Both the position numbers and the translations under genes were made by a program. Shown in pieces: positions 10,328-61,961 of a DNA stretch of 64,000 nt (within the stretch, counting starts at the first letter, position 1; the number at the start of each line of letters is the position of its first letter). Source of the stretch: Porphyridium purpureum. Its lineage: Eukaryota > Rhodophyta > Bangiophyceae > Porphyridiales > Porphyridiaceae. Where the stretch lies: NCBI GenBank assembly GCA_008690995.1, contig VRMN01000011.1, forward strand, positions 519,410-583,409, written 5' to 3'. The notes under the pieces are model-generated. The model saw only the letters and a program-made list of their open reading frames with translations. It searched no databases and had not been told where the DNA came from.

Positions 10328-10831
10328 TCACTCATCCGGTGTTACAGTCGAGAAGATGCCCTGCGCGAGAATCTGAGAGCAGTAGTGTTCGGCCATTTCC
10401 TGCGGACTAATGATCACCAAACCCTGCCCTGTCTCGTGTGCGGTCTGCATGGCTGCGTACGCCCTCGAGAAGGTCAGGGTCGGGATCACCTTGAGCAGCG
10501 TCTGGATAACAAATTCGCGTGTGTTGAACGGGTCATTCAGGATATACAGGCGGTACATCTTGCCCTTATCCGTGACGTTCTCCTTGATTGTCACCTTCAC
10601 CTTTTCCTTGTCCAGCACGGTCGATGCGCGCACTGGCTCGCGCGCCACAGCACCAGCTACCGCAGCCAGTCGCGATGCGGCCACACCCGCACGCTTCGGC
10701 CATGCTTGCGCGGCCGTACGAACCAACGGACGCTCACACGCGCCACGCGCGCTCAGAGCTAGCGCTCCCGCGTCGCACGGCAACCGCCAGACCGCCGGCC
10801 GAATAAGTACAAATGCCGTGTCTGACGCCAT
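10328..10831 (-). CDS. clpS: ClpS-type adaptor of the Clp protease, plastid-targeted
   Basis: About 167 residues. The C-terminal 85 residues are a ClpS domain: YRLYILNDPFNTREFV, LLKVIPTLTFSRAYAAMQTAHETGQGLVI, and EHYCSQILAQGI. ClpS binds N-degron substrates and hands them to the Clp chaperone. NDPFNTREFV differs from the bacterial NDDxTP core, as in plant ClpS, so substrate choice may differ. The N-terminal 75 residues from Met 10831 (MASDTAFVLIRP..., Ala/Arg-rich) fit a plastid transit peptide with an early Phe. In-frame Mets further upstream exist but the sequence there is not conserved in style. The gene converges on coatomer alpha; an AATAAA-like signal lies near 10261. Confidence 0.9.
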   Translation of the reverse strand: MASDTAFVLIRPAVWRLPCDAGALALSARGACERPLVRTAAQAWPKRAGVAASRLAAVAGAVAREPVRASTVLDKEKVKVTIKENVTDKGKMYRLYILNDPFNTREFVIQTLLKVIPTLTFSRAYAAMQTAHETGQGLVIISPQEMAEHYCSQILAQGIFSTVTPDE

Positions 10832-43096: not shown

Positions 43097-44430
43097 AAAG
43101 GGGGTATTGGCGAGCGGCGCAGGTTTTGGAATGTGAGAAAGAAAACACGAAGATCAAGAAGGATGAGACTTTAGTACTTGGTGTGGTGGCCGCGCGCGTC
43201 CAGTACAGCTTGAAGACGGCGAGGCATGGACTCTAAAAGTGGAACTACGTACTTTTGGGCCTCGGTCGCCCACGCCGCAAGGACGGCAGCCTTAAGTTCT
43301 GCGACGCGTGCGAACTGGCGGCCTTTTTGGTAAACCACGCGCGGCAAGACGCCCCAAATGTTTTCAATTGGGTTAAGGTCCAGAGACCTTGCAGGCCACG
43401 GCAGCACAGTGACGCCGAGTGCGTCGAGCCACGCCTTGGTCGAGTTGGCCGTATGTGCCGGGGCATTGTCTTGCTGGAAAGTGAAATTGAAGTCATACAT
43501 TTCCAGGCCGAACGGAAGCAAGGCTTCCAGCAAGACTTGTTGATACTTCACGGCATTCAAGCCACCCTCGACGAAGACGGCCATTGTTAGGCCGCGCAGG
43601 GACATACCGGCCCACATGTGAACCTTGCCACCTCCAGATTGCTGGCGCCTGGCGTACGAACTTGACTTGGCGCGACAGTCGACCCATCGCTGTGAGGAGC
43701 CGAACGGGCCATCGCAGCTCCAAATCTTCTCGTCTGAAAAGATCACTTGATGCCAGAAAGCCATTGGTTTCGCAATGAATGCGGTGGCAAACGCCAATCG
43801 CTTGCTGGTGTTGTCAGACGACAGCGAAGGTTTCCGCGAGACTCGCTTGTAGCGAAGAAAGCCTGCTGCTTGAAGCGTCCGACGCACTGTCCTGGCCGAG
43901 CACTGCAAGTGCAGCTCGTGAACCACCTGTCCGGACGTCAGTGCATCAACAGATACGGCGCGAATGGTGCGGCGTTCCGATTTGCGACTCAAAAGCCGTT
44001 TCGGACCTGGCTTCTTGCGGACGATCCGGTGCCCCGTTGGCACAAGAAAATGACTGACAGTTGCATAGGATGGCCGCGAGCGATCTGGGCGCGTCATGAA
44101 GCCTTCGCAATTGCTCGTGCCGACAGCTCCTGGCCCGCAAGGGCGTCGATCTGCCCTTTTTCGTGTTCCGACAGTCACGGCGCCATCGTTCGGCCGTTGC
44201 GCGCTCAATTTCGATCTGGAGACTCTCCACTTGCGCACGACGAGATGGATCAGCGAGCGAAGATCCTTTGAGCACCTTCTGATGGTCTGGGGAAAACAAA
44301 AACGCGCGCGCCGCGCCTTGGTTCATCGTCATGCTCGATGTGAACAATGTTAAAAAAGAGTTAAAAATAAGCTTTCTATTAAAATGGGCTATTTTACTAT
44401 AAGATCCATTTTTTGGACCAAAATGCAGGT
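42913..44430 (-). mobile_element. Tc1/mariner-type element, degenerate
   Basis: Holds the frameshifted transposase at 43171-44300. On the left a TA (42911-42912) is followed by CAGTCCTGGCCAAGATG, which looks like a Tc1-type terminal repeat. The right end is uncertain: no good reverse-complement copy is found, only a weak TTGGACCA...GGTATA similarity near 44410-44435. The right boundary is a guess. Confidence 0.55.
43171..44300 (-). pseudogene. Tc1/mariner transposase, frameshifted
   Basis: The main frame (43171-44238) has the catalytic D, D34-type E core: VIFSDEKIWSCDG, FQQDNAPAHTANSTKAWLDALG and SLDLNPIENIWG, which is the DD34E signature of Tc1 elements, preceded by a paired-like DNA-binding region (SGQVVHELHLQCSARTVRRTLQAAGF). 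The first helix-turn-helix (SEHEKGQIDALAGQELSARA) is in a different frame, so one frameshift near 44110 breaks the gene. No ATG joins both parts. The DDE residues themselves look intact, so the loss may be fairly recent. Confidence 0.88.
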
Positions 44431-44774: not shown

Positions 44775-45070
44775 ATGTCTCAGTTAAGCGGATCGGCTCT
44801 ATCCACCCGCGTGCTAGAGGCACGCGAGTTGACGGAAGAGTACAAAGCACAAATGGCAGACAAGGACACGGCGGAGATCTTGGAGTCCCTTCAGGTTATG
44901 TTCACCGGCGAGATCATCAAGAATCTGGGGCCTGTCGGCCAGTTCTCATTCTACAGGTGGCTTGTAGACAAAGGAGTCACGATTCCTGAGAAAGACCATG
45001 GTGGGAACATAATCCCTGTTCTTTTCCGCCTTTTACCATTGTTGTCAGTCAGCCAGCGGGATCCGGGATC
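44775..45070 (+). pseudogene. Copia Gag, N-terminal part, cut by the DNA transposon
   Basis: Begins at the ATG 44775 (MSQLSGSALSTRVLEARELT) and runs about 99 codons to the insertion point. The frame stays open for a further 11 codons inside the transposon end and then stops at 45104. Its reading phase matches the Gag-Pol frame that resumes at 57924, so the two were once one ORF. It is helical and acidic with FYRWLVDKG; no domain is recognised. The frame is also open upstream to 44676 but without ATG. Confidence 0.8.
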
Positions 45071-45239
45071 CAGTCCGTGTGTTGAATATTTGCCCGTACT
45101 TTGAGAACCGAATACACCCAGGAAAAACTGACCGAAAAACTGACCGAAAAACTGAAATAAAGTGTAAGCAGGCCAAGATCAGCTTTTCGGTCAGTTTTTC
45201 GGTCAGTTTTTCGGCCAGTTTTTCGGTCAGTTTTTCGGT
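45071..45239. repeat. Left terminal and subterminal repeat array of the DNA transposon
   Basis: CAGTCCGTG at 45071-45079, then three direct GAAAAACTGACC units at 45122-45154, a 26-base spacer, and five units in the opposite orientation (CAGTTTTTCGGT) at 45181-45239. The two blocks could fold into a long hairpin. CACTA elements carry comparable 10-12-bp subterminal motifs bound by their transposase. Confidence 0.85.
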
Positions 45240-45388
45240 TACGCCCATTACATTTAAGCATTACCCATTTATAAATTACTTTCTTAGACATTACCAGATT
45301 TTAGAAATTACGTTTCGCGACATTACCAGACTTTGAAACCGGAATCTTTATCGGTTCACTTTTATTTCAAATTTGAGTCCTTACTTTT

Positions 45389-48040
45389 TTAGAAAAACGC
45401 ATCCACACAGTCGTCGTCGTTGATCTGTCGATTCGCATCTTGTGCAAGATGGAGGTTAATCTTTTTGTCCGTCAGGATGTTGATCAATGAAGATTTACCG
45501 TATGCAATCACTGCCTCCCACAATCCGCGGCGCAACTCGACAATGTTGTCTGTATCCGTGTTGATATGTACCATCGTACTGTCCGAAAGTATACGAGGCA
45601 TTGAAGCGACAATATTCTGGATGTAAATTTTGAGGCACTTCGCATCCGACAAAAGTTTACGCTGCTCCATCATCCGGGTCATGCTGTCGTTGACTAAGCA
45701 TGGATCGAACTCGTCACTTCTCAATCCGGATCTGTACAACATCGTCGACATCGGAAACGGCTTCCCCCACTGACCAGGTAAAGATCCGAAGTTGATTCTC
45801 TTCAGCGCTTCATTGAGACTCGTCCCCTCTCCGAATGTACGAAGAAAGTCGATGATGTTTCCGTGTTCATCAGTGAAACGTTTTGTCGATTTCGGATGAA
45901 GAATGTAGTTGGTACGCTCTTTCGACTTCAGCATTCGGTAATGTGTGACAAGTCGCCGTGTTCGTAGATTCTGTGCACTGCATGTGACTTGAGCTCCATA
46001 TATGGAACAATCCGGATTGTCTGAATCATGTGTACAGGAAAGCATATACGATAAAACTGTCGTTACGGCTTGCTCAAAGTTTCGATTGTCCTGACACTCG
46101 GTGATCAATACATCTTCGAAGTCATTCGCTGTCCAGGCAACTGATACGGATTGACGAGTAGGCGTCCTTCCGGATCGAAGCGAACGCATTGTAGCGTAGA
46201 GTAGTGCGTAAATCCGAAGTCCAGTTGCGATAAGCTCAACAAATATCCCTGAATTCGCATCTTCGAAATCGTCGAGTCTGAGAATGTTGAGATCTTTCAG
46301 CGGCCTTGGGATGTGCTTGCAGACGAATGTTGCTGGATTCAGGAATACCGGCCACACTTGATGTCCGATTACGCATCGTGTCACATGGCGAAGAAGCAGG
46401 ATGGATTTTTGATCGGATGATAAGTTTGTCTCACCGAGAGATTGAAGAAATGCGTATGTGGTTTCGTCATTAGCATGTGCATTGTTTGGTAAGTGCGCAT
46501 CGCTGTTTCGCACGTCGAATGTATGCGACAGCAGAATATTTCCAGCCTTCGGTGACTTGAGCGACAAGCCGACGAACAAGTTCTTTCGTATCGTCGTATA
46601 TATCAGGTTCAATGATCGCTCGCGTGCGGCTCTCAATTCGACGACTTGAATCGTACTCAGCTTTGTCATATCCGTAGGAATGTATGAGTTACACAAATCA
46701 CCAATCGTGTCTGATGTATTATTCGAATAGTATGCATTGTACCACGCACCGCTCTTTTGCGTGATTGGTTTTGTCAAACCTTCGTCGAGCTTTGATGTGG
46801 ATGAGCATGCCTTGGATTTGGATCGCTGTCTCATCGAATGTTCTGCATACGCTGGTTCGGATACCTTGCGGTTGTCGTCTTCATTTCTGCTATGCGCATC
46901 GAGTGCAGCCAAACATTCTTCGGTGATAGTCAGTGGTACGAGTGGTGCCGCTCCACTTCGAAAAAATGCGAGAAGATCCAAATCACAAATGCTGCCTGGA
47001 GTGTATGGTTTAATTCGCGACGTGTTTCGCATCTTCAGTTTAGACTTCTGCTTGAACTGTGAACGGGTATTCGATAACGTGAGCGCGACCGTTGCATCTG
47101 AGTTGGTCATTGTTATTGTCGCAGCGCCGTCGAATACCGGAGTAGGACGATGAGTCTCAAAAACTGCGTCATTCGCTTGATCCGGATACGTATTATTCGG
47201 ATTATCATCGCATAATACGTTTGCCTGTGATGGACTTTCATCCTTGTCCATCGGCGACTGCATTACTTCGGTCTCACTTTCGCGAAGTGGTGGTAGCATC
47301 GGATGTTGCGGATCAACAGTCTGAGGAAGACCAGTGCATTCAATCGCAGCATATGGTGGGAAACCAGCATCGAGAAGAGTCAATGACTCATACGGTTCGT
47401 CATCTGTACTCGCAGAATTCGTTGGTTTGTGTTTGATCCGAGCAGCCGTTGTCGTCGGTGCCCGTGTTTCCGTGTGAAGCTGTTGAATCCGCGTGGTATT
47501 TGTGTTCGTTCTTGTTGCCAGGTTCGCGGATTTCTTTCGACACTTGCGCTTATTCGGATGGTTGAAGGGCGAGTCATTGTCTGTATCGTCAATCCTTTGT
47601 GTTGCATTCTTTTCTGTTTCGGCGAATGTATCATATGTGTGGTCAGCGCATGTATTTTTGCCGAACAATTTCAATGCAGCACAGGTCGTATGCATCGTCT
47701 TTTGGCATCCATCTGCTAGACATGTGATTGTGTCGTACTGGTCGTCGTCGGATGCGATTGTATTCGACGAATTCAAACGACTGCATTCTCCGGATATGTG
47801 AACTGCGAAACACGGTTGCCGATCACTGGCGGTAGTGGGTTGAAGAATCGCATCGGTCGACGCCTTGATGTACCGCTTTCTTTGAGCTGCCTTCCCGGTC
47901 TTGCTCGTTATCTTCTCCAAATCCGTGTTCCCTAGCAATGACGGTGCGTCAGCCTTTGACAGACATCCGGATCTTCCGCGCCCTTTACGCCGCCCTGAAT
48001 CCACAGTTTCTTTGTACATCCTTTTACCGATTCCGCGCAT
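45389..48040 (-). CDS. Transposon-borne protein of unknown function with PHD-like zinc finger
   Basis: 883 residues, not recognised. Residues 77-134 form a Cys/His cluster: C77, C86, C107, C112, H117, C120, C131, H134; the C-x4-C-x4-H-x2-C core has PHD-finger spacing. Residues 140-420 are polar and disordered with acidic patches. The C-terminal half (about 470-870) looks folded and helical (LSSDQKSILLLRHVTRCVIGHQVWPVFLNPATFVCKHI, GIFVELIATGLRIYALLYATMRSL, FLRTFGEGTSLNEALKRINFGSLPGQWGKPFPM). It ends DDDCVDAFF. The ORF is intact and ATG-started. A chromatin-reading role is suggested by the finger only. It is transcribed towards the left end of the element and is divergent from the 318-aa gene. 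Confidence 0.75.
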   Translation of the reverse strand: MRGIGKRMYKETVDSGRRKGRGRSGCLSKADAPSLLGNTDLEKITSKTGKAAQRKRYIKASTDAILQPTTASDRQPCFAVHISGECSRLNSSNTIASDDDQYDTITCLADGCQKTMHTTCAALKLFGKNTCADHTYDTFAETEKNATQRIDDTDNDSPFNHPNKRKCRKKSANLATRTNTNTTRIQQLHTETRAPTTTAARIKHKPTNSASTDDEPYESLTLLDAGFPPYAAIECTGLPQTVDPQHPMLPPLRESETEVMQSPMDKDESPSQANVLCDDNPNNTYPDQANDAVFETHRPTPVFDGAATITMTNSDATVALTLSNTRSQFKQKSKLKMRNTSRIKPYTPGSICDLDLLAFFRSGAAPLVPLTITEECLAALDAHSRNEDDNRKVSEPAYAEHSMRQRSKSKACSSTSKLDEGLTKPITQKSGAWYNAYYSNNTSDTIGDLCNSYIPTDMTKLSTIQVVELRAARERSLNLIYTTIRKNLFVGLSLKSPKAGNILLSHTFDVRNSDAHLPNNAHANDETTYAFLQSLGETNLSSDQKSILLLRHVTRCVIGHQVWPVFLNPATFVCKHIPRPLKDLNILRLDDFEDANSGIFVELIATGLRIYALLYATMRSLRSGRTPTRQSVSVAWTANDFEDVLITECQDNRNFEQAVTTVLSYMLSCTHDSDNPDCSIYGAQVTCSAQNLRTRRLVTHYRMLKSKERTNYILHPKSTKRFTDEHGNIIDFLRTFGEGTSLNEALKRINFGSLPGQWGKPFPMSTMLYRSGLRSDEFDPCLVNDSMTRMMEQRKLLSDAKCLKIYIQNIVASMPRILSDSTMVHINTDTDNIVELRRGLWEAVIAYGKSSLINILTDKKINLHLAQDANRQINDDDCVDAFF

Positions 48041-48594
48041 TCTCCAAATCCCTCCGCGTTGTCAATATCCGCGTTGACCTCATGCGCATAGACCTTTGTC
48101 TTGTTCACCCGGATCCGCGTGCCACCCCGTCAGCGCTTTGTCCCTTCCGTCCCCTCCGCCTTCTCCGCTCCCTCCATCCCCTTCGCTCCTGTCTTTCTTC
48201 AGCCGGAATCTACATAGTCCCTCCCGCCCTCTGGTCTGCAGATTAGTTTCCTCGCTTGGCTTAATTTGCGCGCGCTCAGGCAATAAATCATCAAATGATG
48301 TTGTTTTATTATAATTTTGAATATGCATGAAAAGTCATCGAATTGTGATGAGGTATCCGGTTCATACTCAAATAGCTCTTTTTCATCCATAGCCATTCCT
48401 GACTTTGATGTGCATGGCTCACTTCGTTCGTGTGACGAAGTCGAGCATGGGCGTGGATCGTATGAAGGTGTCGAGGTTCGGGCTCTCTGTGCTTGTGTGT
48501 CAGAGGTGACGTTGCGCATGCGAATTGTCGGGCTACAACACACGGATAGGAACTGATACGCGGATATGCTGCCGTCTTACTCCTAAGCCCAGCA
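48041..48594. promoter_or_regulatory. Divergent promoter region inside the DNA transposon
   Basis: About 550 bp between two divergent transposon genes. A CCTCCG/CCCTCC-rich part (48140-48230) is followed by an AT-rich part (48285-48330). No ORF of note. Confidence 0.45.
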
Positions 48595-49551
48595 ATGTCG
48601 GATAGTGAAGAAGTCGATCGACTGCGAACGCAACTCGCTTTGGCGCTTAGTTCGAATATCATTGCTCAGAATACTACCGAATTGAAGGCACGAGAATATG
48701 CGCTTTATTCGATGATCACCGAGTCCAAGCTCATGAGCGTTGAAAAGGAAATTCAAGGTCTGCGGCGTGATATCGACGAGATAATCCGAATGCTCCGCGA
48801 ACGCGAACGAGATCGTATCGCGGATCCGATTGCTGTGCGGGAACCGAGAAGTGGTGAAAACATACAGGGTGCAGGCTTCAATACGGACGTTATCTGGATG
48901 CGTACGTCTATGATCAATGCACAGCGCAATTTATCCGAGTTTCTGTCGCGGATCAATTGCCGTTACATGGCGTGCCAGAATTCGCATGTGGTTCCCGAAT
49001 TGGTCATGGTGGATTGGCCAGTGCAACATTCGGATGGATGGCCTGCCAAGATCGAACGCATTGATGATTTGCAGTATCCAATTCCTGAACATGTTTTGTT
49101 AGAGCATCCGGCATTCGGTGTACGACAGAAGAGCAAGATTCAGCGTATAAGTCGAGTATACGTTCATTTCCAAGGTCAAGCGTTGACAAGCGATCTGTTG
49201 AAGTTCCATCCTCATCCGGATGCATCTACTGTCTGGTCCAATCTTTTATCGTATATTCTGGTTTGCTGGAATGTCACGGGGAGCCGTCGGTATCCGTGGG
49301 AGAACTTTTCGTGGGTGACAAAGGAAAAGATCCGTGGGGTTTTCGAATGCTACGAATCGACATACGGCTCTGCCTGTCTTCGTTTCTGTCATTTGTACGG
49401 GTTCGATGAGGTGGACACGGATCCTCCCATAGCGTGCTCTCGCGCATGTACACAAGGTTGCCTTCGTAGGCGTGGAAGAACCTTGCATGATTTCGCGACT
49501 GACTGTAAACGCATGCACGATACGTTGATCCGTATGAAATGTAGCCTTTAA
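48595..49551 (+). CDS. Transposon-borne coiled-coil protein of unknown function
   Basis: 318 residues, not recognised. The first 80 residues form a heptad-rich coiled coil (EEVDRLRTQLALALSS, SVEKEIQGLRRDIDEIIRMLRERERDR). The remainder looks globular and rich in Trp and aromatic residues (VIWMRTSMINAQRNLSEFLSRINCRYMACQNS, VMVDWPVQHSDGWPAKI, STVWSNLLSYILVCWNVTGSRRYPWENFSWV). The C-terminus is Cys-rich: CLRFCHLYGFDEVD, then ACSRACTQGCLRRRG and a final KRMHDTLIRMKCSL, which could bind metal. A coiled coil plus folded domain suggests an oligomer, perhaps a helper of the transposase. Intact ORF, ATG start. Confidence 0.7.
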   Translation: MSDSEEVDRLRTQLALALSSNIIAQNTTELKAREYALYSMITESKLMSVEKEIQGLRRDIDEIIRMLRERERDRIADPIAVREPRSGENIQGAGFNTDVIWMRTSMINAQRNLSEFLSRINCRYMACQNSHVVPELVMVDWPVQHSDGWPAKIERIDDLQYPIPEHVLLEHPAFGVRQKSKIQRISRVYVHFQGQALTSDLLKFHPHPDASTVWSNLLSYILVCWNVTGSRRYPWENFSWVTKEKIRGVFECYESTYGSACLRFCHLYGFDEVDTDPPIACSRACTQGCLRRRGRTLHDFATDCKRMHDTLIRMKCSL

Positions 49552-49615
49552 TAAAACATCTTGGACGAAATCTAGGTCTACTTCACATTAAAATGTATGC
49601 TCATATCGGATCATT

Positions 49616-50650
49616 TCACTCGATCGAATGCGAGTCGTTGTCCAGCATTGCCATATCTTCAGCCAAAGTATCCGCCTCTTTATACGATTCCGCTGCTGCA
49701 TTCCATTCGTCCCTGCACTGGTCGTGGGCAAGCGTGAACGCTTCAAAGCTTCCGGATGAAGGTACAAGAACACAATCCTGGATTATCTTTTTCAATGCAA
49801 TGTTCGACCTGCTGTAGCGCGTGCCCGGCGCGAGCTCTGCACGGATGACCTGGAGTATGCGGTGCTTGAATCCGATGAAACTCTTATTATGCTCCTCGGC
49901 CAATTCGAAATACTTGCTGGCAAGCTCCGTTCGGAGCTTGCGATTCATCTGACCGATCCTCATCGAGGTCTCTTCCCCCGTATGCCGCATTCTTGACCAT
50001 GTCGTTGTTCTACGCGAAATGAGTCCATCCGGTTCGAAGAGAATTCGAAGCTTGATCAGTTCATCCGATATCGTGCGCACTTGTCCGTAGTCAGCGTATT
50101 CGGACATAGCGTCAATATCAGGATCTCTCATACGTTGCTGAAAACCATTGTTGCTCAGATCCTTGGGCTCGACGAGGATCTGCCACGAATGCAAGAAATG
50201 TGGCGTCGGATTCAACCACATCAATACTTCTGGCACATTTGCAAATATCGCAGCCGTACAAGAATCCGTATGCATCGTCCTAGTGATTGAATCAATGTAT
50301 CCGGGTGAGAGCCATACGCGCGGTGGCATTTCCCATGGTCTTGCCGACGTTCGACGGCGACGCGAACCCACCTTGTATTCGTCTTCGTCATCTTCCACCG
50401 GATTCTCAGCACGACGAAATAGATCCCATGTAAATTCGACAATCGCTGGAACTGCACGAACGAAGTATTCGATGATATCATTCATTGCCGGATCATGCTT
50501 TTCGTAGTCCTTGAATACATATCGGCTCTGAAACTGGTCCACGATCTGCCGCGTGATACGAATTTGAGCTGCAAAGTAATGCCATGCGATGTGATAGCGT
50601 GCGACCCACAGTCGTGCATGAAGTTCGCTGAATCGATTATACTGGTCCAT
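49616..50650 (-). CDS. Transposon-borne protein of unknown function
   Basis: 344 residues, not recognised. Starts MDQYNRFSELHARLWVARYHIAWHYF and reads as a mostly helical protein with aromatic-rich first 120 residues, a basic patch SRRRRTSARPWEMPPRVWLSP at about 98-118, SWQILVEPKDLSNNG, and a helical C-terminal half (MRIGQMNRKLRTELASKYFELAEEHNKSFIGFKHRILQVIRAELAPG). No membrane segment or zinc cluster. It starts 24 bp past the stop of the 865-aa gene on the same strand, so the two may be co-transcribed or overlap in UTRs. Confidence 0.7.
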   Translation of the reverse strand: MDQYNRFSELHARLWVARYHIAWHYFAAQIRITRQIVDQFQSRYVFKDYEKHDPAMNDIIEYFVRAVPAIVEFTWDLFRRAENPVEDDEDEYKVGSRRRRTSARPWEMPPRVWLSPGYIDSITRTMHTDSCTAAIFANVPEVLMWLNPTPHFLHSWQILVEPKDLSNNGFQQRMRDPDIDAMSEYADYGQVRTISDELIKLRILFEPDGLISRRTTTWSRMRHTGEETSMRIGQMNRKLRTELASKYFELAEEHNKSFIGFKHRILQVIRAELAPGTRYSRSNIALKKIIQDCVLVPSSGSFEAFTLAHDQCRDEWNAAAESYKEADTLAEDMAMLDNDSHSIE

Positions 50651-50674
50651 TCGAAAGCTCCTTCCGTGTTTATC

Positions 50675-53272
50675 CTAATCAGCGTGATGGCGCGTTACAT
50701 CGAATACAGGCCATTGCCTCCTCCATTCAATCACACTTTCTACTCGCACCTGGAACGACGGCCAGTAGGCACAGATCTCATGGAATGCAGTAATCGTATG
50801 CACGCTCGATAGGTACGAACCACTCGGATAACCATTCATTGTATCCATTTCTGGCGAGAAGCTCGTGGAGGTATCCGAATATTTTCTGAGCACCTGGTCA
50901 TACGCGAAAACATCAATTTCCTTTGTTTCAGCGAGCAACATTCGCCGCGTCACTTGATTCCGACCGAATCCAACCCTGGCATCCATCGACCGTTTGTAAT
51001 ACGCATGTTCATATGCTGCTTCGATGCATCGTTGTTCTTGATCACCCCCCATCGTTTTCTTCCGGCACAACAAGAATCGATGTGCGTATCGGATGCCACG
51101 CAGCACATCCTGAAGAGGATGAACCGGAAGGCGCTCCACAGTGCCAATCGGATTCGTATACACATCTTCGTAAGAGAAATCATCGCATGAACATCCGTAT
51201 CGAGAATCACATTTGTTTCCCATCGAAGCCGTATGCGTGTATCGACATGGTCTGTATGCCATACAGGCAAGCGCGCCTTGGACTGCGCAAGTCACCGCAT
51301 ACCATTCGTTGGCTAGAGATTCAAAGTGACCTAAGGCATCAAATCCACGTCGCATCTCCGCTGGTTGCATTAATTCCGTATTATCCATCGGATGTGCAAA
51401 TCGGAGCCTTGCGTACGCATTATTCATATTCAAGGCATTGATACGGATTAGATCCCAGAGCATTGCTGTATCTCTCAGCATCCATGAAAACATGCCGCTA
51501 TCCGCTATCGTGAAGCCGGTTGGGTCTGATGGATGATTCATCACCCGAATAATATAATCCTCGGATGCAAACTTTCGTCCTCGGTAACCCGTCGTCTTCT
51601 TCGTCGCCAGGTGGGGTACCTCCTGAATGAGGTACGCACCGATATCCGCGTGCAGGAATTGACAGTCATCCGAAGTAAACGCGAATTCATCCGTAAAGTA
51701 TTCGTCTACTGTGTAGTTGCTGAACAGCAGCGCATTCGGAAGCTCTGCACCGTTATAGTCTTCGCGTGGAGAGTCTTCGCACGGAGTGACTTCGAAAAAT
51801 TCGAGCCCGGTCAGACCGTCGGTGAAGTTCTGATGCGGATCTTTGTTCTCGAACGACCATGCCGTAAGCATTCGCATGTAGAAGTCGACGTTCAGAATCA
51901 CATCCAAAAGATGCAGACCCACCTTGTCATTTTCCTTGGCCTCTATGTGAATGGCCTTATACGTATTCTCACTTGCATCCTTGTACATCGCACTGAATCG
52001 ATCTATGATGTCGTAATGCGAAAAGCCTCGTCTGATGGACTTAGGTTGCTGCATCGGATGACTGCTTCGACCGAGAGTGCACGTATCTGTCCGTGCACGC
52101 TTCGGATCCTGACGTGAAGCAAATATCCCAGGCACATTTCGGATATCACTTCGAATTTCTCCTCGGATATAGCTAGGTCCCGGATCGTCTTCGCGGCTGT
52201 ATGAAGCCGTGTCATACTTGACATTCCCATATCCGCGGGGAATCTGTCCCGGGCGCGGGAGCGAACTGCTTCCTCGCCTTTCGAATGGCGCACGGTACGT
52301 TCCGGATCCAGAACCACTTGGCATATCGATTCTACCATACCCAGGCGGGCCTCGTAGCGTTTTCTGGGTATTCGGATTCAGCGCAGCGGCCCCAAGTCGC
52401 AGCGAACTCGCCGAATTACTACGGATGAGTCCACCACGAATGCGACGGCTGCGCTCATCAGCATCCGATGCTTCACTACTTTCGATCGAATCTGACATTC
52501 GTCGTTTCCCTTTGTCAACAGTCGAGACCCTTTTCGATCGCCGAGTATTCGGATTTACGTCAGACTCAGCATGCTGTCCTGAAGGTGCGTTCGAATCACG
52601 CAAATTCGTTTCAGGCGTTCTCTTGACACGCATATCCGTATCCATTTTCGCAGCGTCCAACGAATCTCCGGATGCATATTTCTCTGCACCAGCACCTGCT
52701 GCAGGTAGTCCGGTATCCGCTGGAACGTGTCCGCGCAATGCTCTTGCCGACACACTCTGCGAATCCGACGACACAGAAACCGCGCGAATCGGAGATCGAC
52801 GGCCAACACTGGACATGGGTGTGGTCGACTTCTTCGCAGTATCCGAAGCCTTTCCCACGATATCGGACGGTTTCGCACCGACGTCCTTCACTGGATCCTC
52901 CTTCGGATTTGCACCGACGTCCTTCACTAGATCCTCCTTCGGATTCGTCTCCGCGTCCGCGCATTTCGCACCAATCGGATCACCTACTGCAACCGTCTCA
53001 GCTGAAGCCGTAGCTGGCGCGGACTCCGACGGCATTTTTTCCACATCCCTCTCAACTTCATCATTCGGATGACCTCTGACGGCTGCCTTCAGTTTCGACG
53101 ATGCTCCACGCACTGCCGAACCCTGACCCGCACCGGACGCACGCCCAGGCTCCACCTTTTTCGTCGCCGCCGGATTCGTCGCTTTACCCCCCTTGCCCTG
53201 CGCACTTCCGGATACCACTTTCCTTCCTTTCGACGGATTCGGATCCGCCACTTTCTTCCCGGTGTTCTCCAT
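50675..53272 (-). CDS. Transposon-borne large protein of unknown function, disordered N-terminus
   Basis: About 865 residues from the first ATG at 53272; the frame opens at a GTG at 53296. Residues 1-400 are disordered: Lys/Gly/Ala-rich, with an imperfect direct repeat (NPKEDLVKDVGA, NPKEDPVKDVGA), basic nuclear-signal-like patches (TRRSKRVSTVDKGKRRM), and Ser-rich segments (RSNSASSLRLG). The C-terminal 450 residues look folded: FSHYDIIDRFSAMYKDASENTYKAIHI, LLDVILNVDFYMRMLTAWSFENKDP, a tight Cys stretch CDSRYGCSCDD, VHPLQDVLRGIRYAHRFLLC. A basic disordered tail plus a folded domain suggests nucleic-acid or chromatin binding. Function unknown. Confidence 0.7.
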   Translation of the reverse strand: MENTGKKVADPNPSKGRKVVSGSAQGKGGKATNPAATKKVEPGRASGAGQGSAVRGASSKLKAAVRGHPNDEVERDVEKMPSESAPATASAETVAVGDPIGAKCADAETNPKEDLVKDVGANPKEDPVKDVGAKPSDIVGKASDTAKKSTTPMSSVGRRSPIRAVSVSSDSQSVSARALRGHVPADTGLPAAGAGAEKYASGDSLDAAKMDTDMRVKRTPETNLRDSNAPSGQHAESDVNPNTRRSKRVSTVDKGKRRMSDSIESSEASDADERSRRIRGGLIRSNSASSLRLGAAALNPNTQKTLRGPPGYGRIDMPSGSGSGTYRAPFERRGSSSLPRPGQIPRGYGNVKYDTASYSREDDPGPSYIRGEIRSDIRNVPGIFASRQDPKRARTDTCTLGRSSHPMQQPKSIRRGFSHYDIIDRFSAMYKDASENTYKAIHIEAKENDKVGLHLLDVILNVDFYMRMLTAWSFENKDPHQNFTDGLTGLEFFEVTPCEDSPREDYNGAELPNALLFSNYTVDEYFTDEFAFTSDDCQFLHADIGAYLIQEVPHLATKKTTGYRGRKFASEDYIIRVMNHPSDPTGFTIADSGMFSWMLRDTAMLWDLIRINALNMNNAYARLRFAHPMDNTELMQPAEMRRGFDALGHFESLANEWYAVTCAVQGALACMAYRPCRYTHTASMGNKCDSRYGCSCDDFSYEDVYTNPIGTVERLPVHPLQDVLRGIRYAHRFLLCRKKTMGGDQEQRCIEAAYEHAYYKRSMDARVGFGRNQVTRRMLLAETKEIDVFAYDQVLRKYSDTSTSFSPEMDTMNGYPSGSYLSSVHTITAFHEICAYWPSFQVRVESVIEWRRQWPVFDVTRHHAD

Positions 53273-53703
53273 CTCGTCCCGCTCACCACCACTCACGCAC
53301 CCGCACTGTCCACCGCGCTACCGCCCTCTCCGCCTTGTCCGCCTTCCCAGCGCTTCCCACCTTCGCACAACCCACCTTCTCCGGATCACACCAACTTCCC
53401 CACACGATCTGCTCTTCGCCCCACGGCCACTGCGGCCTGCGCGTTTGACTTGTATCGAATTTGATGGACCCAAATGAAAAAAATGGCAGAATTGAATGGC
53501 ATGTGGGGTTTTGTCGGGAAAATTACGCATTCACAGAGAGAAAGCTTTATATTAACTACCTCTTTGGCTTGCCGTGGTACAAACGCTACGCCTGCGTCCA
53601 GGAAAGACGCGTGCGTCGGATTGACGGAAGGCTTTGGAGGCGGAACGGATACAGCGTGACGTGCGCGAAAACATACGGATAGGAAGACTTCCCCAAACCG
53701 CGA
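53273..53703. promoter_or_regulatory. Divergent promoter region of the transposase gene
   Basis: About 430 bp between the 865-aa gene and the transposase. Left part is CCTCC/CACCACC-rich; right part is AT-richer. A short plus-strand ORF around 53461-53680 is not convincing. Confidence 0.45.
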
Positions 53704-56700
53704 ATGGACAGACAGCAAGGCCTCGAGAGCAACGCTTGGCATCGACGTAGAAACAAACGTATCCGATGCGATGGGACCCGATGCGACTTCACCGTACCAG
53801 AGGATGAGGGATTGACTTACTCCACGCGACTTCACATGATGCAGTCACACAAGCGCAAGTGTAAACTTCGCATGCATCCGAATCGACTCCCGTATACGCA
53901 GGCCTACTTATTTGATGCGGACGACGGTAGTTTGCAGAGGGAGGACAGTCCGGATGATACGGGAAGCGCAAATACAGAAACGCGGACTGGACGAGGCAGT
54001 GAGCTTCCTGATATCCGGATGGATGACGAGGACCCGGAAATGCAATTTCATTCGGATCGTGACATTGACAGCGGTTGCGAGAGCTTGCATGCAAACCTGA
54101 CACAGGATGCGGAAATGTATCTAAGACCGATGGAGCCGGTGCGTGGCGGAGAAGAAGGAGAAGAGCAAGTCGAATATATCTTAGGTCCGTATGCCAAGCA
54201 CTTTAATGCGTTATTAAACCAAAAGACTTTACGAGAGCGCTTGCAAGATCGTGACGACGAGATGTCAAAATTCGTACGGAGTCTGACAGGCGCGGGTGAA
54301 ATGGAAGATGTTGATCTGGATGAAGCAATCGAGATGATACGATTTAAAAACGACCAGGAAGTATTCATCCAGAAGCATGGGATATCCGTACGTCATGCCA
54401 CGGACTTAAAGTCGATTGAAGCCAAACTCTTACGAATTGCTATCCGTATGACTCTGCGCCAAGTAAGCCAGCTGACAAAACACTCATTTACCATGTTGAA
54501 AAGGTATCCGTTAAACCACGAGGCGTCTCGAATCGACGCTGTATACGCTGCATTACAAAGCAAATTGAACATAGCTTCCTCTCACGTGCTGAAACGAGCA
54601 ACAAAACTTCTTTTCACATTCAGATCTTCGAAGCGGATGTCTTCGCTTCTTGGCAATCCGAGTATTAAACCTGTTGAGACGTACGTCGAGTATGGTCGCG
54701 GAATCCGACTGAGACGAAACACCCTACGCCGGAACGTGAAGCAAACGATCCGATTTCGTGAACCGATGGACATCGTCATGCGTTCAGCTGCAGCTATTAT
54801 TGATGAATACGGATTGGAGCCATTCGTTATCGACTTATTCAAAACCCGGGATCGCGAAATAGTGATGCATCCGCAGGATGGAAACCTCTGCATCAGCGCA
54901 GCCCGTCGGATAGAATTTGAAGTGAATCGAAAACATGGACCGGATCCACCTCAGGTTGTAATTCTTCCAATACAGATATTTGCGGATGAGTCCCATATGA
55001 CCCAGAATGGACGACACACAGTGACGCCACTGAAGATACGAATAGTACATCGAAGGCTGTTTGATACACACTCTTCCCGTATTCCTCAAGTCGTCGCATA
55101 CTTACCACCTGTGGATACCCGAAGTATTGCACGAGCATTTGGTGAGGAAACAAGTATCCGCATTGATCCGAAGCTAGCCAAAAGAGAGCTCGAATCGTCC
55201 ATGTACCATGCAATTATGAATAAGGCATTCCACCATCTCATGATCGCGAATAAATTCGGAGTGCCAGTCCTGTGGAATCATCGCCGCTTGCTTCTTTTTC
55301 CTATTGCATACAAGTTGTCAATGGACATGCCGATGATCTCAAAATGCTCATTTACGAAAGCTTCTTTTGTATCCGGATCCCGTGCTCGAACCATGCCATG
55401 CCATCAATGCATGGTGATAGCGCCAGAGGCCACAACTCGAGCAGTCGAAGCAGGACCAAATTCGGATGCATCCAAGGCAGAAGAGTTCTGGATTACGCGT
55501 ATTCCTCTGCAATATCGCTGTGAGAAGCAGGTTGAACCTTTCATCACGCAGAATTTATCTGCATGGGGCACGCTACAGAGAAAAGAACAATCTCTCCACT
55601 TTCTCGGTGACTCAGCGGCTATCGGATGGAATCGATTTGATGATGACGATGACGTTGCATTCAATGCAACGATATCCGCATTCAAACACAAAATACATCT
55701 GCGCAACCGCGGGAGATTTCAACTGACAGGCATAGATGGCTTGCACGGATTCCTTGCATTTTGGCTTCGAGGTATCACAATCGCTGGTCTCAAAGCATTG
55801 CTGAGCAAACCGAATACTGTACACGAGGTAGGCCTCGTCGCTGAGAGACTCACGGAAGCGCAGCAGCGAGCTACGCGACACTTGAACGAAGTAGAACATT
55901 CGGATTTTCCACGCATGTGGGCTTCACTCGATTTCGATGAACAAAGACATGGAAGTGCATCCGAAGATACCAGTGGCGATGATTCAGAGTCGCATGACGA
56001 ATACTCTTCGGATGATGACATTGTCCGCGCGAATGAAAGAAATTCGTCACAAACGAATACACGTCAAAGACCAAAGGCCAAAGCAAAGACGAACGACTCT
56101 CACATCAATCCGAGGAGGGCAGAGTCCAACAGAAAGGGCAGCGTATCTGACCAACTTCGAGGTATCATCGACTCAGCAGCAGGTAAAGCTTGGAACCAAA
56201 TTGCGACGGAGATAACGGATGAGGCGAGGTTCCGGCGACCAGCGACATACTCTCCGATACGATTATCTTCGTTTTTATCCGACTTACCCAAATTCGCAGA
56301 ACAATCATATTCGCTGGGCTTTCTACTTCAAATGATTGTTCTTGTACACCAGGAGCATTTACTCTCGGATCGTACACGTGAAAGCTTTACCGAACTTGCA
56401 ACCAGATGTATCCGACTGTATGGCGTACTATACAAAGAAAAGCTGCGTCGACCATGGCTTGAACTCATCCCAAGGCTCACATCCGACTTGCAATCCCGAC
56501 TCGATTCATACAAGCGGCAGATCAATCTACGTTGGAATGCTCCGAAAATACATGCACTGTCTCACTTCGGGGACAACTTGACGGATCTGGGACCGATAAA
56601 GTTTTGGGATACTACGGATGGAGAGAAATCGTTTCAAATCGACAAGGCGTGGTTCAAATCACTGGTCAGCGCAGATACGAATATCCCACATAATGTCATG

Positions 56701-57570
56701 CTGCAGCGCGCAGAGGTGTTCGAAATCGGATCTTCTTCTTCGTACTGGTTTGATAAGCTTGCAAGGAACAAGGATTCGAATGCAATTGCATACACACACG
56801 AACAAGTATCCGATGAAGCATACACACATACACGAGAATCGGATGCCGCTCGAGCGTGGTACCGGCACCGCTCGTCTTCTGTGAACTGTTCATCGATCCT
56901 TTTCGGAATCTGGCAGAACGCGTGCACTACTCTGAGGTACAGCAGCGAATCCGGATTCGAGGCTGCCCCTTCATGGCGACCAACATCGTGGAACCCTTCT
57001 ATATCATTCGAATCCGCTGATGACGAAGAAACGAACATGCTCTGGTTGCACACGGATACGGCTTTGAAGACGTATGCATCCGAGAAACTCCAAACGGCTG
57101 TGAATGATGGTACTGCAACCTTCCAAGCTTTCAGACAAGTTCAACTGAAAAAGCCTCGCGACGAAGCCGAATGCATTGTTGCACATCCGAATCACTATCG
57201 TTCTCCGAGATGGGACATTCTCGAATACGCACTACAAACTGGTCACCCTGAACGCCACGGATATGGAAAATGCATCCTAATTGTCCGGATCAAATTACAG
57301 GGACCTTACGACGAATCCTTTGACGTGGTGGTGATACAAGATTTAGAGGCGCACGATGGAGAAATCGAAAAGTCAGAGTGCAAATGCAAATGCAAGCGCC
57401 TAGATCCGGTGTTTCATCATTACCGACTCAGTAATAATTCGGTAAAAGTATTGGACACAGAAACGATAACCGGGCGAGTGACAGCATTCAAGGATATCCG
57501 CATGAAGGACAGCCGATGGTACTACCTTTTAAACCCAAGCACATTCGAAGGCGTACTAGAATACAATTAA
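53704..57570 (+). CDS. DDE transposase of the DNA transposon, Plavaka/CACTA-like
   Basis: 1288 residues, intact. An N-terminal C2H2/BED-like finger (C22, C27, H44, H49). The catalytic core is read from motifs recalled from Plavaka elements: VVILPIQIFADESHMTQNGR (Asp428) followed by PLKIRI and later YLPP; a cysteine pair MPCHQCMV (C566, C569); GIDGLHGFLAF (Asp678, His681); and the C-terminal block WNAPKIHALSHFGDNL...GPIKFWDTTDGEKSFQIDK (Glu974) ending in NVMLQRAEVFE, which parallels the IH...H...FG...TE...E..H..K region of Plavaka and the lGPv...ER..g..K region of plant TNP2. Which residues form the DDE triad cannot be fixed by eye. The last 230 residues are of unknown role. Confidence 0.75.
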   Translation: MDRQQGLESNAWHRRRNKRIRCDGTRCDFTVPEDEGLTYSTRLHMMQSHKRKCKLRMHPNRLPYTQAYLFDADDGSLQREDSPDDTGSANTETRTGRGSELPDIRMDDEDPEMQFHSDRDIDSGCESLHANLTQDAEMYLRPMEPVRGGEEGEEQVEYILGPYAKHFNALLNQKTLRERLQDRDDEMSKFVRSLTGAGEMEDVDLDEAIEMIRFKNDQEVFIQKHGISVRHATDLKSIEAKLLRIAIRMTLRQVSQLTKHSFTMLKRYPLNHEASRIDAVYAALQSKLNIASSHVLKRATKLLFTFRSSKRMSSLLGNPSIKPVETYVEYGRGIRLRRNTLRRNVKQTIRFREPMDIVMRSAAAIIDEYGLEPFVIDLFKTRDREIVMHPQDGNLCISAARRIEFEVNRKHGPDPPQVVILPIQIFADESHMTQNGRHTVTPLKIRIVHRRLFDTHSSRIPQVVAYLPPVDTRSIARAFGEETSIRIDPKLAKRELESSMYHAIMNKAFHHLMIANKFGVPVLWNHRRLLLFPIAYKLSMDMPMISKCSFTKASFVSGSRARTMPCHQCMVIAPEATTRAVEAGPNSDASKAEEFWITRIPLQYRCEKQVEPFITQNLSAWGTLQRKEQSLHFLGDSAAIGWNRFDDDDDVAFNATISAFKHKIHLRNRGRFQLTGIDGLHGFLAFWLRGITIAGLKALLSKPNTVHEVGLVAERLTEAQQRATRHLNEVEHSDFPRMWASLDFDEQRHGSASEDTSGDDSESHDEYSSDDDIVRANERNSSQTNTRQRPKAKAKTNDSHINPRRAESNRKGSVSDQLRGIIDSAAGKAWNQIATEITDEARFRRPATYSPIRLSSFLSDLPKFAEQSYSLGFLLQMIVLVHQEHLLSDRTRESFTELATRCIRLYGVLYKEKLRRPWLELIPRLTSDLQSRLDSYKRQINLRWNAPKIHALSHFGDNLTDLGPIKFWDTTDGEKSFQIDKAWFKSLVSADTNIPHNVMLQRAEVFEIGSSSSYWFDKLARNKDSNAIAYTHEQVSDEAYTHTRESDAARAWYRHRSSSVNCSSILFGIWQNACTTLRYSSESGFEAAPSWRPTSWNPSISFESADDEETNMLWLHTDTALKTYASEKLQTAVNDGTATFQAFRQVQLKKPRDEAECIVAHPNHYRSPRWDILEYALQTGHPERHGYGKCILIVRIKLQGPYDESFDVVVIQDLEAHDGEIEKSECKCKCKRLDPVFHHYRLSNNSVKVLDTETITGRVTAFKDIRMKDSRWYYLLNPSTFEGVLEYN

Positions 57571-57662
57571 AAGACAAAGTCCGATGAAGTCTCATCTTCT
57601 CATGATTGAAATTATTCGCTACCACCCATCTCGCAAACTTTAAAGTTGCAGACAGTATCGAG

Positions 57663-57923
57663 CAGTTTTTCGGGCAGTTTTTCGGGCACTTGATTTTGCA
57701 GCCTTTCTTTATTGCCTAGTAAATCGCTGTACGCACGGAAAGTCTACTGTACCTACAGTTTTTCGATCAGTTTTTCGATCAGTTTTTCGACACTTCAGTA
57801 TGACAGTTTTTCGAACGCTGCGAGAGAGGTACAGCAAATAGCTGTACTTTACATGCTTACATCAATTTCAGTTTTTCGTTTAGTTTTTCGGTCAGTTTTT
57901 CGCTCCATTTGTGTCACGGACTG
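57663..57923. repeat. Right terminal and subterminal repeat array of the DNA transposon
   Basis: Nine CAGTTTTTCGnn units: two at 57663-57686, three at about 57756-57791, one at 57803, and three at 57869-57905 next to the terminal CACGGACTG (57915-57923). The units here vary more in the last two bases (GG, AT, AC, AA, TT, CT) than those of the left end. A small palindrome GTACAG...CTGTAC lies at 57829-57846. Confidence 0.85.
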
Positions 57924-59993
57924 TCCACTTCTAATGTGCAGGCTACATTCGAGGTGGGGAGTATGGAAATCCAATCTGACAACGACAGGTCCGACGTGCC
58001 ATACACTGATGGTACATCTCAAGGAGCGCGCGTTGCTATGAGCAAAAGCGAGGAAACCTTCATGAGACGCTACAGTGCATTCACCAAGGCATATCAGAGT
58101 GTAGATTCAAAGTTCTACGGTACCGACGAGGAAAATTTCGCCGCATGGCGAATGCAACTCGTAAATCATTTAGCTCTACACAATCTGGATGATCAGTACA
58201 CTGCACAGGTGATCCAAGCCTGTCTCGCAGGCGATGCTCTGACGTTTTATCTTGGGACGTATGTTGACGAAGATTTGACAAAGTTCACCATAGCAGATGT
58301 TCTGGTGGGCTTAAGGGACCACTTTTACACCATCGAGAAGCTTGAACGCCTGCAGGAGCAGTGGGAAAAGGCAAACTTCGCGGAATTCCAGGCTAACAAT
58401 TCCAATATCTCTGAAGTGGAAAATTGTAAGTCTTTGACCCAAAGACTCAAAAGAATCCAGCCAAATTTGAAAAAACCATACAGATCCCATGAAATGCTAC
58501 GTGACAAGTATAAGCAAATCATGTTCAGACATCCCGTATACGAGCGCCTCGTCATGACCCCGCTGCCAACATCGGCTGACGCACTATGCAGCAAAATTGA
58601 AGCCTTGCTTCTGCATATGCAACCCAGTACAGTCTCGCCCAAGCCGCAGCTTGCTTTCACTGCGCAGCAGACGTCAAGGGCACCTATGGCTCAGCCGAAT
58701 CACTCGGTGACTCTGTATCAAGAGCGATACAGGCGTTCGCGTGCAAAACCGCAGGCTAATCGGGCAAGATCTACTCCTCGACCGATTAGCATCGCATCCG
58801 CCAGCAATCCTCGTACGGCAAACGGCACACAGCTTCTTTGCGACATTTGCCAATCCGAAAAACATTTTCGGCGGTTCTGCCCCGACAAGGAAGCCAAAAG
58901 GAAATTTTATACTGCAAATTCAAACTACATGGTGGCAGATTTTCTAGGCTCCGACTCTTCTTCGGGTGCAGACGCAAGCGACAGCACCGACGATGTCACT
59001 CACACAGACCTCGTTTGGCTTTCGCCAAGTCTTGTTCTTTTTCAACATGACACCGCTTTTGTTATTGTCGACAGCGGCGCTAGCGGTGGAAACTTAGTGG
59101 GTGAACGATTCTGTCAAGCCCGACAAACCGTCCAAGTTACAGCCCCGCCAAGACGCGTAAAAATGGGCACAAGTGTCTTCGACACTCGCGGTCAAGCCAA
59201 AATTGTCATGCTAGACATAGGTGGAGCAAAGCTCGAATTCTTTGCTGATGTCATACAACTTGACATCCCACCACTTCTTGGATGGCGCGAGCAAAAGGCG
59301 CGACACATGACAGTGGACGCGGGCGCCGGCATATTAACGGCCCTTGCCGACAGCGAACAGCTCAAATTTAGGGTCCACACAATTGCTGGTCTCCCTTGCA
59401 TTTTACTTCCAAATCCAGAAAATCCAGATTCGGTCAAAGAGCAACGTGATGATATAGTCCTGTTCACTGCTACAGAATTGCGCAGATTACACGTGCACTT
59501 TGGGCACGCACATCTCGACAAAATCCGCGATCTGTTGCAGCGCAGTGGTCAACGTCTGACTTCTGCCGAAATTCGCTGGTATGCAGATATCGTACAGAAG
59601 TGCAAAGCTTGCCAATTCTACGCGGATGTACCACGGCGCCCCATTGTGGCCATGCCAGTCAACCCTTTCTTCAACCGCGATATCGCCATAGACACTGTAT
59701 ACTTCGACGGCCTCGCTGTGCTACACATTGTGTGCAAAGGAACCAAATATGCCAGGAATCCTATTTTACGACGCACGGATGCGGTAACCGTCATCAGTAC
59801 GTTCTATACTTCTTGGATCACCATCTTCGGCATTCCGGCCACATTATCCATGGACCGCGGTACTGAGTTTCTGAATGCAGCTTTACTCGAATTCTGTGAT
59901 GGACTCGGCATTGTGATGCGTCCAGCCGCGACTGCAGCAGCCTGGTCGATAGGTATCGTGGAACGACACCATAAGCCCCTGAAAACTGTGTAA
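57924..59993 (+). pseudogene. Copia Gag-Pol: Gag remainder, zinc knuckle, protease, integrase (ends at in-frame stop)
   Basis: Continues the gag frame from 45070. First comes the capsid-like helical part (DEENFAAWRMQLVNHLALHNLDDQY, ACLAGDALTFYLG), then a CCHC knuckle CDICQSEKHFRRFC, the protease FVIVDSGASGGNLV, the integrase zinc region (LRRLHVHFGHAHLDKIRDLLQ, CKACQF) and core DIAIDTVYFDG, SMDRGTEFLN, then a stop TAA at 59991-59993. The frame continues uninterrupted immediately afterwards, so the stop is a single nonsense codon within integrase rather than a domain boundary. Confidence 0.9.
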
Positions 59994-61961
59994 TTCCGCT
60001 TGAAAACAACATTCCCAGACCGCGATTGCGAATTATTGCTCGCACAAGCAGAATTTGCACTGAATGCCACGCTTGGCAACCGTGACACATGTCCATTTTT
60101 ACTGGTCTTCGGTCAATTACCCGTGTTCACGCTTGGCACAGTCCAGGACCAACACAAAATGACTACAGACCGCCATATGGCTATGGAAGTCGCGCGTAGA
60201 ACGACCGAAGGTATCATTGCTACCAGGCGCATTCGCGAGGCAACGCACATAAGCGTTTCAAAAAGCGCACCAGCTTTGCTGAGCCGTGGAGACCGGGTGC
60301 TGTTCTGGCGCCCAAGTGAGAGAGCTTGGGTCGGACCCGCGACCGTGGTCCATGTACACGGAGATGCGAAAACGGTAAAAGTTGAATACAAAACGCGGAA
60401 CTACCACCCAGCTCTCCACCAAGTCAAATTGTTCGTCGCGGATCAAGTGCTATGGGCCGACGAGACTGAGACTTTCTCCAAGATTCTGCAAGTATCAGAA
60501 CATTCACTCAGAAGAAAATGTGACTTTACGATATCGCGCGCCAAAGAAATCGATGGATGGCATGCAAAGGGCGTAGTGGAAGCCGTTCGCACGACAGAGC
60601 GCGCGAATCTAGACACGCGGTGGGTGGACTCCATCAAACTTTCAGATGGAAAAGAGTTCCCGAAATCACGTCTCGCCTTGCGAGAGTTTGCAAAATCGCA
60701 ACCACATGGTTCCATGCTTCGAGACTCACCTACGACATCACGATGGACTGTGCGCGTTCTGCTCTCAGTAGCACTTAATCAATCATGGTCCATATCATCC
60801 TCGGACGTCGAACAAGCCTTTCTTCAGAGCCAGCCTCTGAAACGTCGCGTTTTGGTGCAACCTCCAAAAGAAGCTGGTCTACCATCTGGTGTCCTCTGGC
60901 TTCTGAAGAAAGCCGCCTACGGTCTGGTGGATGCTGCGTACATCTGGTACGAGTCTCTCCGCGACGTGCTCGTCAACAAAATGCAAATGAAAGAGTCCAT
61001 GGTAGACCCGTGCTTGTTTGTTGCGAACGAGGGTGCATGCACAACCCAAGTCGACGATATCTTAACCGTGGGCACGCCCCAATTTCTCGAAGCTCAAAAA
61101 GAAATTCGCAAGTATCTACAGCTCCATCGAGAAAAACGTGACAAGTTCATTTTCAACGGAGCCCAGCTCACAGTCAAGGAGAACTGTGTCAGTATTGATT
61201 TACGAGCGTATATCGAGAAATCTCGCATTGTGGCAGTGAGAATCACCACTTATAGTGACTTCCAGCGCTTCCGCGGCCAACTGCTATGGCTTGCTGCCAA
61301 TTCGAGACCAGACTTAGCGTATCCTGCTGCACAACTCTCGCAAATCTCACAAGACATGTTCGACCATAAGGTGTACAAAGAGTTAGTAGACCAAGCGCGG
61401 GGTGCAGTCTGCACAATGCCATATTTGCACTTCAACCGCCTTCACGGCACCGTGGCAATTCAAGTATTTGCGGACGCCAGTTTCGCAAACAATGTTGACT
61501 TGAGCAGCCAGCTCGGCTTTATCATCTGTCTCGCGGACAGCCAAGGCCATTATAATATTGTGCACTGGCGCTCGGGAAAATCCCGCCGTGTTGTCAAATC
61601 GACTCTCGCAGCCGAGACGCTCGCAGTCATCGACGCATTCGACCACGCCGGTGCAGTGAAGCATATGCTCCAGGAACTAGGAATTCCCAGCCCGGAAGTT
61701 ATTCTTTACACGGACAATCGATCCGTATTTGACGCCATGTCCAAGCGCACGGCCTGCACCGAGAAAGCCGTACAGATATCTGTCGCCATCCTGCGACAAG
61801 CATTGCAAGAAGCAGCGCTCACCAAAATCGGACTTCTGTTGTCTGCTGACAATCCAGCCGATGCATTGACCAAAGCGCGCGGCAACTCTGAGCTAGACTC
61901 GCTCCTGCGTGCTGAAGTCTATCACCCTAAGGTTGTGGAATGGTTTGAAGTGAAAAAGTAA
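59994..61961 (+). pseudogene. Copia Pol: integrase C-terminus, reverse transcriptase, RNase H
   Basis: Same frame as the upstream part. It begins with the integrase tail (LLLAQAEFALNATLGNRDTCPFLLVFGQLP), then reverse transcriptase: SISSSDVEQAFLQSQPLKRRVLVQPPKEAGLP, LLKKAAYGLVDAAYIWYESL, and TTQVDDILTVG, where the usual YVDD is QVDD. The thumb and RNase H follow: LLWLAANSRPDLAYPAAQLSQ, VFADASFAN, RRVVKSTLAAETLAVIDAF, LYTDNRSVFDAMSK, LLSADNPADALTKARG. The stop is TAA at 61959-61961. Catalytic Asp residues look complete, so apart from the nonsense codon and the nested insertion the copy looks young. Confidence 0.9.

Follow-up and report, generated by a model that had tools for sequence, protein, structure and literature searches.

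The last 64 kb of contig C18 in the Porphyridium purpureum assembly (22.16 Mb in 46 contigs, which are numbered C1, C8, C18 and so on below) form the stretch analysed here, hereafter the window. They raise the question of whether a block of large open reading frames (ORFs) constitutes a single mobile unit and, if so, which of its genes take part in its movement. An earlier note on this DNA had described the block as a 12.85-kb transposon with matched inverted ends, subterminal repeat arrays, a CACTA/Plavaka-like transposase and four extra large ORFs. Our analysis confirms that this segment, here called element A, is a real and precisely bounded DNA transposon. Together with its relatives in the same genome, it belongs to a diverse set of lineages, probably of the CACTA/Mirage/Chapaev/Transib (CMCT) type. 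We consider it likely that A is a CMCT-type cut-and-paste element with partner proteins that, like TNPA in En/Spm, either bind its subterminal arrays or regulate it.

Boundaries, arrays and mobility

Element A occupies window positions 45071-57923 (12,853 bp), starting with CAGTCCGTG and finishing with CACGGACTG. Its left terminal inverted repeat, CAGTCCGTG (45071-45079, + strand), is mirrored by the complement of CAGTCCGTG on the right (57915-57923, − strand), and both are bordered by a TC target-site duplication (45069-45070 and 57924-57925). A query made of the two flanks fused with a single TC gave nine genome matches. Two of them, C20:83484-83981 and C18:301061-301558, are empty sites that match over the full 498 nt at 100% identity and carry one TC; the other seven are half-matches at occupied copies of A. 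Since the joined flanks with one TC match two sites at 100%, the boundaries and the 2-bp duplication are exact. The matched inverted ends claimed earlier are borne out, and A's empty site shows that the entire unit has one pair of boundaries. Such sites are most naturally explained by insertion, although excision could in principle also leave them, and the identical flanks and empty sites suggest that the event was recent.

The mobility of this kind of element is proven by a sister family, B, whose transposase is 51% identical to that of A. Its five copies (on C25, C11, C13, C45 and C8) are 98-99% identical in DNA on the transposase side, their similarity ceasing no more than 2 nt (right) or 6 nt (left) from the CAGTCCG end; the ends read CAGTCCG..CGGACTG in A and B alike. 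All flanks differ between the five insertions, each of which has a 2-bp duplication (AT, TC, CG, TC and CC); with A, this makes six out of six insertions for which both ends are available. For the C11 copy (C11:303522-312899, 9,378 bp), the joined flanks identify 13 unoccupied places at 98-100% identity, 11 over all 400 nt and two from base 5, the remaining two of the 15 rows being the occupied site. The C13 copy sits in the reading frame of a transposase of lineage F (see below), and the F copy on C8 is unoccupied at this point, with flank matches that overlap by 2 bp. This nested B copy lies about 10 kb or less from a broken A-type copy. The two flanks of the C25 copy share a 417-nt repeat at 91% identity (L014 780-1178, L049 546-962), and this insertion site may lie in repeated sequence. 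Stops interrupt the transposase in C13 and C45, p318 in C45, and p883 in C13, C8 and C45 (p318 and p883 are accessory genes introduced below); two of the five copies, C25 and C11, have no stop in any of the three.

Both families carry arrays of the octamer AGTTTTTC next to their ends. In A, the left array (45122-45240) consists of units of about 12 bp with this core in both orientations, and the right arrays (57658-57903, + strand) of AGTTTTTC units. Counted on both strands, the octamer occurs seven times in the left 330 bp, nine times in the right 353 bp and never in the 12,170 bp between, with a single occurrence in the window outside A (51,147 bp). When each A end was simulated 1000 times under a Markov model, the mean counts were 0.11 and 0.12 and the maxima 2 and 3. 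Family B has three and four octamers at its ends and none in the 5,381 and 3,370 bp of interior examined; across the simulated ends of A and B, means were 0.07-0.12 and maxima 2-3. The arrays that the earlier note reported are thus found again, and their octamer is retained at each end in A and in B, families with a transposase identity of 51%. Two partial A-type copies, on C34 and C38, hold 16 exact CAGTTTTTCG units each, grouped differently.

The number of A insertions requires more caution. Transposase copies ~100% identical to A occur on C18, C19, C39 and C40. The left flank is the same as in the window over the entire compared length on C19 (1,179 nt) and C39 (1,190 nt), and so is the right flank on C19 and C39 (1,144 nt each) and, for 502 nt up to the first difference, on C40, a contig that begins within the element. 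Because the flanks are the same as far as compared, we reject four separate jumps; judged by these flanks, the four copies go back to a single insertion that was multiplied when a host segment was duplicated or during assembly. Copies of a more distant family, C, on C19, C39 and C40 likewise have a common right flank. A and family C elements are near-equally spaced, with 19,028 bp from transposase to transposase on C39 and 19,046 bp on C40 (computed by hand), and the arrangement at the end of C18, on C19 and C39 and at the start of C40 suggests that a duplicated or tandem segment has been split between contigs. The shared flanks, and the position of the four copies near contig ends or on short contigs, would also suit the notion that the 12.85-kb unit is itself a segmental duplication or an assembly artefact and not mobile. 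Against this stand the two exact empty sites with one TC and the five different sites at which family B has inserted with the same kind of ends. As an account of boundaries and mobility this explanation is refuted and its probability is negligible, while the four copies remain one insertion multiplied.

Other A-type copies are partial: that on C13 runs from element base 4,632 on, that on C30 from base 3,510 on with 6,332-11,177 missing, and those on C34 and C38, which share the 40 nt compared beyond the right end, from base 10,884 on. For this reason there is no second full-length A insertion that shows all genes moving together. The C30 copy is a mosaic: its silent divergence from A is 0.08 in the transposase part and rises to 0.26-0.28 in the accessory genes, a pattern that recombination between copies would give. 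As for its surroundings, A is adjoined on the right by a Ty1/copia-type retrotransposon (window 57909-61961, + strand; a weak rve match, E 0.0049, and RVT_2 in the next ORF, E 7.8e-15). A Tc1/mariner-like transposase lies 0.8 kb to its left (43171-44238, − strand; DDE_3, E 2.4e-11).

The transposase and its lineages

The 1288-aa transposase of A (53704-57570, + strand) contains D428, D541, C566/C569, D678/H681, H950/H954 and E974, preceded by an N-terminal Cys/His stretch that resembles a zinc finger by eye. Six transposase lineages, A to F, could be aligned in P. purpureum, and the order D-D-C(2)C-H(3)H-E is kept across all of them. D541, C566, C569, D678, H681, H950, H954 and E974 are invariant (6/6), and the spacing from H954 to E974 is 20 residues in every aligned sequence. 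The D428 column has D in five of the six; in lineage D the C1 copy has E, and the C11 and C3 copies have D. From this order and conservation, we infer that the residues named are the catalytic ones.

The transposase of family C is 37% identical to that of A. More distant still are lineages D (on C1, C11 and C3), E (C11, C40 and C12) and F (C8, with fragments on C13 and C1). Within lineage D, two copies agree at 99.5% and the third is at 76%; within E, identity among the three copies is 99.6-99.9% over the compared DNA. The apparent end of the match between the two close D copies is marked by CAGTCTGTG, which we treat as a hint and not as a boundary because the comparison runs only four bases beyond.

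Accessory genes and rival readings

Upstream of the transposase, A carries p883 (883 aa; 45389-48040, − strand), p318 (318 aa; 48595-49551, + strand), an 873-aa ORF (865 aa from its first ATG; 50675-53296, − strand) and a 344-aa ORF (49616-50650, − strand). The four extra ORFs noted earlier are therefore present, but they probably do not represent four genes. In the window copy, the 873-aa and 344-aa ORFs lie in one frame with a single in-frame stop between them, and both A-type relatives that cover the position (C13 and C30) have a sense codon there, so that three extra genes are likelier than four. We read the two ORFs as the probable N-terminal and C-terminal parts of a single gene, about 1.2 thousand residues long, which the stop interrupts in the window insertion unless readthrough or splicing intervenes.

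p318 was found at 13 places in the genome, in families A, B and C and in relics. At twelve of these places a transposase of family A, B or C lies no further than about 7.5 kb away; the thirteenth, on C43, is beside p883. Its identity across A, B and C is 34-54%, and conserved Trp and Cys residues mark its C-terminal half; an AlphaFold2 model of low confidence shows N-terminal helices. The 12 rows for p883 represent 11 loci: nine are in A or B elements, one is the C43 relic with p318, and one, on C22, matches weakly and has a transposase fragment about 2 kb away. Family B carries both genes in the same arrangement as A, at about 46-54% identity (45-49% when p883 is taken by itself), and has no match to the 873-aa or 344-aa ORF. 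The family C homologue of p318 has 383 aa and is separated from the C transposase by an ORF that looks copia-like by eye. Beside that transposase, a 132-residue stretch is 26% identical to the 344-aa ORF (E 7e-5 among the loci compared), a weak hint of a relative. An ORF very like the Tc1/mariner-like one near A, again by eye, adjoins the family C p318 homologue.

Constraint was estimated as the ratio of non-synonymous to synonymous divergence (dN/dS) by the Nei-Gojobori method, leaving out stops and without a statistical test; decay pushes such ratios towards 1. Against the decayed C30 copy, the ratio is 0.21 for p318 (299 codons, 3 stops), 0.51 for the 344-aa ORF (342 codons, 2 stops), 0.59 for the 873-aa ORF (230 codons, 1 stop) and 0.68 for the transposase (424 codons, 3 stops). 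Against C13, it is 0.62 for the transposase, 0.46 for the 344-aa ORF and 0.33 for the 873-aa ORF. The transposase parts on C34 and C38 give 1.06 and 0.68. Between A and the C11 copy of B, silent sites are at or near saturation, with dN at 0.35-0.46.

Taken with the ends and arrays, these data lead us to infer a DDE-type cut-and-paste element whose partner proteins bind the arrays or control expression. The transposase, with D428, D541 and E974 as presumed catalytic residues and C566/C569 and H950/H954 as presumed zinc ligands, would cut at CAGTCCG and join the ends to a target with a 2-bp stagger between its strands. Either p318, the partner present in A, B and C, or p883 would bind the AGTTTTTC arrays and, once bound, would bring the ends together or repress transcription there, which is the part of TNPA in En/Spm. 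The split 873+344 gene could provide family A with an additional factor, to which family C may hold a remote relative; in the window insertion, a stop interrupts it.

Several results weigh against this interpretation. Pfam searches with the 1288-aa protein (E≤1) and with the transposases of the other five lineages (E≤10) returned no transposase family. The Plavaka profile PF18759 had no genome match at E≤10, in a search that lacked a positive control, its 14 controls giving only a sub-threshold match in Thermotoga. A profile search of PDB with the transposase alignment gave nothing credible. The AlphaFold2 models are unusable, with a mean predicted local distance difference test score (pLDDT) of 30 for the transposase core and 38 for p318, and for that reason an RNase H fold is unsupported. 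No DNA-binding domain was recognised in p318 or p883 by profile searches. The longest partner gene is interrupted in the window copy, and the ratios against C30 point to no more than mild constraint on its two ORFs. Finally, genome-wide single-sequence searches found neither p318 nor p883 in lineages D, E and F, which means that three of the six lineages do without detectable partners.

This last observation favours the strongest competing explanation, a CMCT-type transposon that needs its transposase alone, the extra genes being cargo or selfish anti-silencing factors with no part in cutting or end-binding. One flank each of one D and one F copy was read and contains no partner gene, the other side being covered to 1.5 kb from the match, and the absence of the 873-aa and 344-aa ORFs from family B points the same way. 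There is also a precedent, as the TET/JBP genes of fungal Plavaka and EnSpm elements likely serve to counteract silencing (Kojima, 2025; PMC12730594). Nevertheless, p318 persists in three diverged families and p883 in two and in relics, with a transposase present at all places but one, and neither protein yielded an enzyme domain. We hold this explanation to be rather improbable. A reading of the extra ORFs as passenger sequence or as genes captured from the host seems to us very improbable. Large elements can pick up host sequence, and no function can be assigned to these ORFs. However, when all four were searched against the genome, the matches fell in element copies or relics, with one clear exception, a weak stretch matching the 873-aa ORF at C3:43330 (24% identity, three stops); neither p318 nor p883 was found there as a stand-alone host gene. 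Both recur with diverged transposases, B having them in the same arrangement, and on this ground they do not look like host passengers.

Two resemblances were examined and set aside. A chromatin role had been suggested earlier, and p318 resembles a PWWP domain by eye, but hhalign gave a probability of 3% over 19 columns with two tiny profiles, leaving the idea unsupported. A PHD-like stretch in p883 reached only a sub-threshold E of 0.4 with the Pfam PHD_NSD profile and is not within the region similar to family B. PDB profile searches with the p318 and p883 alignments gave nothing credible.

A bolder form of the array-binding interpretation is that these families represent a separate superfamily-level CMCT branch, with a red alga as its only known host so far, and that some of them use a multi-protein complex of a RAG1-like transposase, p318 and p883 (in A, with a third protein of about 1.2 thousand residues), without relatives found outside this genome. 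We advance this tentatively, as somewhat short of an even chance. The protein database returned no homologues outside P. purpureum; its profile search, however, also missed the C, D, E and F proteins of the same genome and thus does not show restriction to the species.

Comparison with known transposons

The possibility, raised earlier, that the element is undescribed agrees with literature searches, in which no description appeared among the matches listed (Repbase was outside their coverage). The paper on the published P. purpureum hybrid assembly (22.1 Mbp; PMC6811547) reports 14% repeats, with long terminal repeat elements most abundant and a class of 'unknown' repeats, and 'transpos' does not occur in its main text. 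Protein look-ups show that the families described here account for some P. purpureum 'hypothetical protein' models (FVE85_2738, FVE85_4214, FVE85_2427 and FVE85_4586). They would extend the kind of transposon from which RAG1 arose by a multi-gene branch that is deeply diverged and has moved recently. Moreover, with two sister families, a common end octamer and co-inherited partners, the number of proteins in a CACTA-type complex becomes testable.

CMCT elements are described as having transposases with the order D-D-C(2)C-H(3)H-E, CA..TG ends and duplications of 2-5 bp (Kojima, 2025; PMC12730594), and the statement that A works like a CMCT element is well supported. The Kyakuja, Dileera and Zisupton (KDZ) elements, DNA transposons of eukaryotes, may likewise contain an additional gene, but their duplication is 7-8 bp against 2 bp here (PMC12730594). 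The fungal Plavaka elements are CMCT members for which the same source gives the order D-D-C(2)C-H(3-4)H-E, as here, a 2-bp duplication in PlavakaA, again as here, and an accessory gene in some members (PMC12730594); their ends, in contrast, are TGT..ACA or CATCA..TGATG and not CAGTCCG..CGGACTG. The lack of any match to the Plavaka profile, the presence of p318 and p883 and the red algal host also set the present elements apart. Of the earlier designation as CACTA/Plavaka-like, the catalytic residue order thus stands, and a place in Plavaka proper is not supported.

RAG1 has a similar residue spacing, and Transib generates a 5-bp duplication, against 2 bp here. Both have the same order of catalytic and Cys/His residues as the transposase of A (PMC12730594). 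As a difference, our transposase profile matched no PDB chain. CACTA/EnSpm elements differ in their CAC..GTG ends and 3-bp duplication, against CAGTC ends and 2 bp here, and Pfam lists no transposase family for the present elements. CACTA/EnSpm elements and A are alike in other respects: maize En/Spm and soybean Tgmt* are large, have CA..TG ends and encode a second protein, and the family has arrays of short motifs near both ends, as found in A and B. The subterminal repeats of En/Spm are bound by TNPA, which is required together with TNPD (PMC2613891). There the two partners are splice products of one gene, whereas the candidate partners in P. purpureum are separate ORFs encoded on both strands.

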